Part shown: piece by piece, positions 23,288 to 25,510 of the stretch | Layout: every line of letters begins with the position of its first letter | Numbering within the stretch: the first letter of the stretch is position 1 | Program-made: the position numbers and the translations under genes | Notes under the pieces: generated by a model | Told to the model about the DNA's origin: nothing | Seen by the model: the letters and a program-made list of their open reading frames with translations, nothing else | Database searches by the model: none | Assembly (NCBI GenBank): GCA_015660855.1 | Contig: JACSDG010000090.1 | Span: 1-34,435, forward strand | Origin: Magnetococcales bacterium | GTDB lineage: Bacteria > Pseudomonadota > Magnetococcia > Magnetococcales > UBA8363 | Reading direction: 5' to 3' | Length of the DNA: 34,435 nucleotides

Positions 23288-23303
23288 GGTTCGCCCCTCC
23301 ATT

Positions 23304-23506
23304 GAACATGATGCCCTGCGGGCAAAAAAACAAAATCAAAACCCTGGGGCTGCGCCCCTAGACCCCCCTTGGAGGGCAGTAAAATCAAAGTCAAAATCAA
23401 ATTCAAAAACAAAACCTTGGAGGCTCTGCCTCCAAACCTCCGCCGGGGGGATGATCCCCCCCGGACCCCCGCAATAATTTTTGCCAAACTTTATTTTCCC
23501 GGCACA
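23304..23506 (+). repeat. Mosaic hairpin repeat, copy 7 (complete)
   Basis: A complete copy sits between the two histidine kinase genes. GAACATGATGCCC starts a few bases upstream of the kinase start codon. The module order is the usual one, with a CCCCCCTTGGAGGG variant of the third hairpin and the tail AATTTTTGCCAAACTTTA at the end. Confidence 0.92.
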
Positions 23507-23536: not shown

Positions 23537-24817
23537 TCAATCATGCAATGACGCATGAAAACGAATCTTTATCTCAAATCCTTCTCCTGGAGCACTATGC
23601 ATAACCATTTCCCCTTGAAGATCTTGAGCAATCAAGTTGGCAACCACATACATTCCAAGCCCAGAACCACCAGCGTCTTTCTTGGTGGTAAAAAATGGAT
23701 CGGTTATCCGTGCCAATACATCCTCAGACATTCCACACCCAGAATCACGATAACAAATCTCTAACATTGTGGCATCTCTATGAATATTAATTTCTATAGA
23801 ACCTCCATCCTGACCCGCAAAACCATGACTTAATGAGTTTTTAATAATGTTCACCATAATTCGAGTCAAAGATCCAGGCCGGCCAAAAATAACAATATCA
23901 GATGTGATCTCAAAATAAATTTGAACGTTCTTTTCCTCGAATTCACATTTAAAGCTATCCAATGTCGCTTGAATATTCTGAGACAATGAATAATTGCGTT
24001 TTTTTATGTCCGCCACACGCATCGGATTTTTTTCAAAATAACGAACCAAATCACCAGCCACTGTCATTTGATTTATAACAACTTCGCTCATTACTCCCAC
24101 AGTGTCCAAATAATCCCATAACTGCGTCTCCGTAATTCCATCACCTTCCATCAAGTGCTTCAAAACACCTGTCCGAAATCTTATTTCCGAGGCTGCCACA
24201 AAACTAAGCCCCAAGGAATTATTGATTTCGTGAGCAAATCCAGCCACAAAAAGCCCAAATTCGTCGCGTTTTTCTTGCCATGCAGAGCTTAAAGCCCATA
24301 GACGACCGATCGCCGAGGCCAAAATCATCCCGGCAATGTCCATAAACATCATACTTTCATTCCGAGTATCTGGCAGCCACGGTGACTCCACACGCAAAAA
24401 CAGATTAACGACACCAATAACCCGACCACAAAACACAATGGGGGTCACCAGGTGACCATGGCCAGCGATTCCGTCAATGTGAATGTCATGGCGTTCGTCG
24501 GAGGAAATAGCAACAATCATCTGGCCGTCAGCGGCAACCCGACCGCACAAACAACGACCCAAATCGAGCCTGGAACATCTGGAAAGCGTCGTTGGATCCA
24601 CATTGCGATGGGCCACCAAACGCAATCCATCGTCAGGTTTTTCCAACCGAAACAACATGGACCGTCCATCCCCACCAAGAAAATCATGGCCGGCAAAAAA
24701 ATCCAATGCCATGGCATACAGCTCTGCATCAGTATTTACACAATGCGATTGATTCATTAACATTTTCAAATCATCACTACGCGACCAACGGCTTTTCGAT
24801 AAATCCATTGCGCTCAC
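23537..24817 (-). CDS. GAF-domain histidine kinase
   Basis: This 426-residue soluble sensor kinase has an N-terminal GAF-like domain (about residues 30-190). It includes LGRCLCGRVAADG and LVTPIVFCGRVIGVVNLFL, a pattern typical of small-molecule or redox GAF sensors; the CLC cysteines may matter. The kinase core has the phospho-His in FAHEINNSLG, N-box NIIKNSLSHG, G1 DSGCGM, F-box DPFFTTKKDAGG and G2 GSGLGMYVV. It could feed the receivers downstream. The start is uncertain: GTG codons at 24820 and 24817 and an ATG at 24808 are in frame, and GTG 24817 has the best spacing from GGAG. Confidence 0.9.
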   Translation of the reverse strand: MSAMDLSKSRWSRSDDLKMLMNQSHCVNTDAELYAMALDFFAGHDFLGGDGRSMLFRLEKPDDGLRLVAHRNVDPTTLSRCSRLDLGRCLCGRVAADGQMIVAISSDERHDIHIDGIAGHGHLVTPIVFCGRVIGVVNLFLRVESPWLPDTRNESMMFMDIAGMILASAIGRLWALSSAWQEKRDEFGLFVAGFAHEINNSLGLSFVAASEIRFRTGVLKHLMEGDGITETQLWDYLDTVGVMSEVVINQMTVAGDLVRYFEKNPMRVADIKKRNYSLSQNIQATLDSFKCEFEEKNVQIYFEITSDIVIFGRPGSLTRIMVNIIKNSLSHGFAGQDGGSIEINIHRDATMLEICYRDSGCGMSEDVLARITDPFFTTKKDAGGSGLGMYVVANLIAQDLQGEMVMHSAPGEGFEIKIRFHASLHD

Positions 24818-25005: not shown

Positions 25006-25321
25006 TTCGTACAAGTACGGAAATATACTAGAACAACCTTAAAGGTCTTGTCTAGTCGAAGTTATTGCTTTCAGAAGATAAAGGATAACGCAAGAAGAGA
25101 AAAATCCCCGGTTCGACAACTCCGGGGGTGAGAACCCCACACAAGGTTGGGCCAGGAAGCTTTTAGGCGGGAGCCTTGGACATGTGCCGCCCGCCCCCGG
25201 AGTGGCATATAAACCGCACATCATAGTCGCAATTCTACCCCAGCTCGGCCATAAAAGCACCAAGCTGGGATAGGATGGGCAAAATCCCCTTGTGTTTGAA
25301 GGTTCTCAGTCTTCAAACGCA
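25006..25321 (+). ncRNA. Candidate structured RNA with at least six hairpins and possible long-range pairing
   Basis: No coding region fits here, but complementary segments are unusually dense. Hairpins: 25006-25022; 25028-25055 (CTAGAACAA against TTGTCTAG, one bulge); 25061-25089 (GTTATTGCTTT against AAAGGATAAC); 25106-25127 (CCCCGG/CCGGGG); 25232-25276, about 13 bp with one mismatch, built on CCCAGCT/AGCTGGG; and 25291-25321, about 11 bp built on GTTTGAAG/CTTCAAAC. ACACAAGG (25139-25146) can pair with CCTTGTGT (25288-25295). ATGTGC (25182-25187) can pair with GCACAT (25216-25221), and GGCGGG (25166-25171) with CCCGCC (25190-25195). The last two compete, as may the long-range pair and the final hairpin. 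The strand is not proven. The layout recalls large guide-type RNAs such as HEARO/omega RNA, but no IscB or TnpB gene follows. Confidence 0.5.
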
Positions 25322-25324
25322 GAC

Positions 25325-25510
25325 TATCAAAACAAGTCACCGCATGTCAATATTTTATTTATTTATTTAGAGCATTTTTCTGTCTAACTGTAGAAATAAT
25401 TAGCCTATGATTTTTTATATAGTGTCTTAGAATAAAATATAAACCCATATAAGGATGACCCTCCCTTAATCCTATCAATGATTTTTTGTTTTTGCTAAAC
25501 TTTAGCTTTT
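25325..25510. other. AT-rich spacer, no gene seen
   Basis: This stretch, with runs such as TATTTTATTTATTTATTTAG, is clearly richer in A+T than the neighbouring genes. The only open frames are short and have no coding character. A partial tail module (TTGCTAAACTTTAGCTTTTC) sits near 25491-25510. The low GC suggests relaxed or foreign sequence beside the candidate RNA. Confidence 0.5.

Follow-up and report, generated by a model that had tools for sequence, protein, structure and literature searches.

The region analysed here lies in a 34,435-nt stretch of DNA from a Magnetococcales bacterium, hereafter referred to as the window. It is surrounded by genes for two-component, chemotaxis, rhodanese, transketolase and transport proteins, and no phage protein was found among the neighbouring genes scanned. 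No iscB/tnpB-type nuclease was found among the window proteins scanned. A histidine-kinase gene on the same strand as the element described below starts near position 24811, about 300 nt downstream of the conserved core of the element, and another G+C-rich inverted repeat lies between the two. The window also contains a dispersed repeat of ~200 nt (23302-23500), which is present in dozens of genomic copies, mostly 89-98% identical. The whole window contains no Rfam match at gathering scores, and the region itself gave no credible match at E-values up to 10.

An earlier note on this sequence had proposed a functional structured RNA at 25006-25321, with dense hairpins and an 8-bp long-range match. 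The hairpins are present as described, and the minimum free energy of the region is lower than that of dinucleotide-shuffled sequences (z = -3.45 on the plus strand and -3.86 on the minus strand). Homologues of an 84-nt stretch were detected by a DNA search of the same genome and 60 relatives: ten other genomes contain the stretch, as does a second contig of the same genome. The aligned and oriented homologues identified the minus strand of the window as the functional strand. A TTGACA box (25350-25345) precedes the start of the RNA, which lies near 25315. The conserved core consists of 83 nt (25202-25120, minus strand) and falls within the proposed extent, but the stretch 25006-25090 lies outside the core. 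The 8-bp match, ACACAAGG (25139-25146) with CCTTGTGT (25288-25295) in plus-strand letters, exists, is meaningful and corresponds to the b1/b' pair described below; it is accompanied by a second long-range match that the note had not listed, TGAGAACC/GGTTCTCA (25129-25136 with 25301-25308). The features of the window copy are as follows.

25345-25350, minus strand: -35-like box TTGACA, at the same place in most relatives
25323-25328, minus strand: -10-like box GATAGT with a 16-nt spacer, by consensus match only
25295-25317, minus strand: a1 hairpin TTTGAAG-ACTGAGAAC-CTTCAAA
25301-25308, minus strand: a1, TGAGAACC, perfect complement of a' over 8 nt
25288-25295, minus strand: b1, ACACAAGG, perfect complement of b' over 8 nt
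25235-25273, minus strand: strong hairpin CTATCCCAGCTTGG/CCGAGCTGGGGTAG with a 13-bp stem, at the attenuator position of relatives, without a terminator T-run
25120-25202, minus strand: C4-like core (P1, P2 and P3), 78 bits with the covariance model, covariation
25194-25202, minus strand: 5' strand of P1, CTCCGGGGG, covariation
25120-25128, minus strand: 3' strand of P1, CCCCCGGAG, covariation
25166-25175, minus strand: inner hairpin of P2, GGC-TCCC-GCC, covariation
25136-25151, minus strand: P3 hairpin CCCAACCTTGTGTGGG, containing b', covariation
25139-25146, minus strand: b', CCTTGTGT, complementary to b1
25129-25136, minus strand: a', GGTTCTCA, adjoining the 3' strand of P1, complementary to a1
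25100-25127, minus strand: possible intrinsic terminator CCCCGG-10 nt-CCGGGG-A-TTTTT (-11.7 kcal/mol), on weak evidence

The two promoter boxes together match 10 of 12 letters. The 13-bp stem, which had been noted earlier, is real but was found in the window copy only and is not a family-wide feature.

A covariance model built from 15 cores identified 34 places, the window core among them, in 24 of the 48 Magnetococcales genomes, as well as matches in six viral contigs and in Rhodospirillales (Roseospira/Rhodospira) and weaker matches in other families of the phylum. Among 49 distinct rows, 96.7% of the pairs in the P1, inner P2 and P3 helices are standard pairs, and real covariation is seen in all three helices, with 12 of the 17 pairs changed on both sides. 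The covariation score is 0.305, whereas shuffles score 0.089 ± 0.009 and slid versions no higher than 0.103; this comparison favours the structure somewhat because the alignment was fitted to it. Folding, homologues and covariation thus bear out the structured RNA. The same genome contains two further copies ~1.1 kb apart (L002:1172-1252 and 2353-2433, G000:C152) with different a/b words, the first of which has ATA at the position of the downstream-gene ATG in relatives.

In a typical locus, a TTGACA promoter box is followed by a1, which lies in a short hairpin loop, then by b1 and three arms (GGCGG, CCGCC and GGCGG followed by a T-run), and finally by the core, a2, b2 and an ATG. Both a2 and b2 lie inside the ~60 nt that follow the core, with b2 at the Shine-Dalgarno sequence, and the ATG is located 56-64 nt past the core in most loci. 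The words a' (beside P1) and b' (within P3) each have one complementary target upstream (a1 or b1) and one downstream (a2 or b2), and they vary by locus (35 and 38 distinct query words among 48 loci). When own and swapped loci were compared (n = 48), the mean longest perfect complement was 8.42 versus 5.22 for a1, 7.50 versus 5.23 for b1, 7.21 versus 4.73 for a2 and 6.94 versus 4.82 for b2, and no permutation reached the own-locus values. Complementarity that is maintained within each locus while the words vary is what one would expect of an antisense control whose address changes.

The element usually precedes a prophage gene by ~60 nt, and this gene often encodes an antirepressor. The downstream proteins in many loci contain Phage_pRha, Bro-N, AntA or P22_AR_N domains; in the remaining loci small unknown or other proteins are encoded, and not all are recognisable antirepressors. 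Because several unrelated antirepressor domains are found behind one leader, what is conserved is the RNA module and not the protein. In other families of the phylum, several copies have a1/b1 and a core without a2/b2 (L077, L078, L079, L082, L083 and L084). Three of them (L077, L078 and L083) precede genes resembling those for secreted proteins or lipoproteins, and L083 has a clear terminator after the core.

The position of b1 suggests a second level of control, since in each of the 29 attenuator loci scored it shares exactly 2 nt with a terminator/antiterminator arm (arm 1). In folding models of these loci, the mean pairing of the antiterminator (1:2) fell from 0.90 with b1 free to 0.23 with b1 occupied, and that of the terminator (2:3) rose from 0.02 to 0.34; 2:3 pairing increased in 29 of 29 loci and exceeded 1:2 pairing in 17. 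Antisense-triggered termination is therefore plausible in these models. In the parent module, a promoter would drive a leader with a1 and b1 and then a core whose a'/b' complement a1/b1 and a2/b2. The core RNA would probably be excised, as in phage P1, and would pair with a2/b2 at the ribosome-binding site, so that translation of the downstream gene is blocked. Its pairing at b1 would weaken the antiterminator (GGCGG:CCGCC) and favour the terminator (CCGCC:GGCGG plus T-run), so that transcription would also be cut.

This organization is shared with C4 of phages P1 and P7 (RF01695; targets a1/b1, RF03163), in which a1/b1 are followed by a three-stem core with a'/b' and by a2/b2 over the ribosome-binding site; b' covers that site, a' adds specificity, and the system controls an antirepressor (PMC5320573, PMC12197685). 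The window copy has a three-stem core in which P1 encloses P2 and P3, and its a'/b' are complementary to a1/b1. In contrast to C4 of P1/P7, it has neither a2/b2 nor an antirepressor gene, whereas a2/b2 over an antirepressor ribosome-binding site are present in most relatives. By anatomy and descent, the window element is very probably of the C4 type. Two further systems can be compared by description only: the P4 CI RNA with seqA/seqC, an antisense RNA that has targets on both sides of itself and acts by transcription termination, and IsrK/anrP of Gifsy-1, where a leader terminator precedes an antirepressor (PMC4825925). The Rfam C4 model (RF01695, gathering score 45 bits) matched neither the window nor the relatives; the model works in this order, as C4 copies exceeding its cut-off are present in 7 of 48 genomes. 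The family is a C4-like addition that goes unrecognised by Rfam in Magnetococcales. The genome that contains the window also has a tandem array of three classical C4 modules, Rfam C4 copies ~700 nt apart (L120, G000:C237:13851-15365), and the a/b words of the window are absent from the stretch of this contig that was read.

These findings leave very little room for the earlier suggestion of a HEARO/omega RNA of an IscB-type nuclease, which size and the presence of several stems alone would favour. The corresponding model (RF02033) had no match in the region at E-values up to 10, and the relatives display C4-type anatomy in a family with a different, defined gene context. A search of 61 genomes with RF02033 also gave no match, which by itself is no proof of absence because the controls gave no signal. 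We regard this assignment as extremely improbable.

In the window copy, the promoter box, the a1 hairpin, a1, b1 and the core have been kept. Locus comparison revealed no T-run attenuator, a2/b2, antirepressor gene or any downstream ORF, and the attenuator region between b1 and the core has diverged with its length nearly unchanged. Because the antisense parts have been spared while the parts for antirepressor expression are gone, we favour the interpretation that this copy is a solitary, trans-acting C4-like RNA that functions as a free RNA, to which we would assign a probability of about 0.55. Most likely, such a free antisense RNA would act in trans, its targets being prophages or incoming phages that carry matching a/b words. 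Situated among chromosomal genes without the gene that it normally silences, it may serve as an immunity RNA against phages. Chromosomal C4-like RNAs have a precedent in the solitary C4-derived sRNAs (group 1) of Acinetobacter baumannii, whose expression was shown and for which action on phages or host mRNAs was proposed; unlike the window copy, they match the C4 model and occur in many copies per genome (PMC5320573).

The main rival explanation is that the window copy is a relic: the prophage antirepressor module to which this leader belonged has been lost, and selection on the leader has ceased. The loss of the attenuator, a2/b2 and the antirepressor points in this direction, as do the lack of phage neighbours among the genes scanned, the negative target search described below and the presence of a single copy in one genome. 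However, the diverged attenuator region has an intact core on one side and an intact promoter box on the other, and both a/b complements are preserved; just these parts would not survive uniform decay. Moreover, the a1 hairpin, which in relatives has the form GGAG-loop-CTCC, still pairs in the window copy with letters that differ on both sides of the stem. We consider a relic less likely than a free RNA, but more likely than the other alternatives. A conserved neighbourhood was sought in sister genomes, where only a cold-shock gene region and repeats matched, at other sites, and the window sequence had no match in a plasmid collection.

The place of a2/b2 is occupied in the window copy by the possible terminator at 25100-25127, which was drawn by hand and then folded; an automated terminator scan gave no match, the 10-nt loop being longer than its loop limit. 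Since CCCCGG is common to P1 and this terminator, the two are mutually exclusive. When the RNA is folded at full length, the terminator is formed and a'/b' are engaged in cis by a1/b1; this cis pairing would hide the antisense loops unless the RNA is processed. Such a fold, the shared CCCCGG and the histidine-kinase gene downstream on the same strand would also be compatible with a cis-acting attenuator of that gene, in which the choice between P1 and the terminator is set by cis a/b pairing or by a core RNA from outside. This seems improbable to us, because the relatives act via a2/b2 at the ribosome-binding site and not via a terminator after the core, because the other G+C-rich inverted repeat intervenes before the kinase gene, and because no homologous arrangement is present in sister genomes.

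The a/b words of the window copy make its specificity readable, so that an intergenic fold that had lacked an explanation becomes an antisense system open to testing. No gene with matching a2 and b2 was found in the 48 genomes of the order, and a search of the genome that contains the window with the Shine-Dalgarno words alone yielded five matches, none with a2. The other two copies in this genome use different a/b words; the window RNA, if active, therefore probably addresses an element outside this assembly. In one viral contig (L110:1276-1316), TGAGAACCG...ACACAAGGAG matching a'/b' of the window precedes the start of a terminase small-subunit-like gene. We did not accept this as a target, because about one chance match is expected by our estimate and the contig has no core.

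By sequence, the closest Rfam family is sRNA-Xcc1 (RF02221), which has been described as an integron- and virulence-linked RNA (PMC12444791, PMC12189769). RF02221 matches many relatives over its full length and at the same place with 23-41 bits; all family matches are below its gathering score of 53 bits, and the window copy has no match. Both the covariance model of the present family (45.6 bits) and RF02221 (40.7 bits) match locus L077. Members above the RF02221 cut-off (63-86 bits) were found in Haemophilus phage Aaphi23, Acinetobacter phage 4316, Moraxella phage Mcat15, phage HEMP4 and a Pseudomonas plasmid. Four of the five precede an antirepressor-type gene according to annotation or Pfam (Ant with Bro-N, KilA-N, and Bro-N twice), the HEMP4 record being the unannotated fifth member. 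In all five (L105-L109) the a/b words are repeated up- and downstream of the core, and most have the three-arm attenuator. As in the window family, a1/b1, a core and a2/b2 thus precede antirepressor-type genes in these phage and plasmid members, and for these reasons sRNA-Xcc1 also looks like a C4-type antirepressor RNA. Its position upstream of symE in Xanthomonas integrons (PMC12444791) and its listing beside C4 and isrK in a Xylella genome (PMC12189769) fit this interpretation. No paper joining sRNA-Xcc1 and antirepressors was found among open-licence papers.

We tentatively propose, at clearly less than even odds, that an undescribed C4-like family, linked to sRNA-Xcc1 via intermediates, controls antirepressors in many proteobacterial prophages by translation block and antisense-triggered attenuation, and that bacteria have captured solitary copies, the window copy among them, for sequence-specific immunity against phages. 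In Xanthomonas integrons, sRNA-Xcc1 would be a further copy of this kind. This would suggest an origin and a function for sRNA-Xcc1, which has been regarded as linked to virulence with no mechanism known, and the solitary copies raise the question of whether bacteria retain phage antisense RNAs as immunity. In a different Magnetococcales genome, a type II hammerhead ribozyme (66 bits; L004:2890-2954, minus strand) was also detected close to a prophage-like locus.
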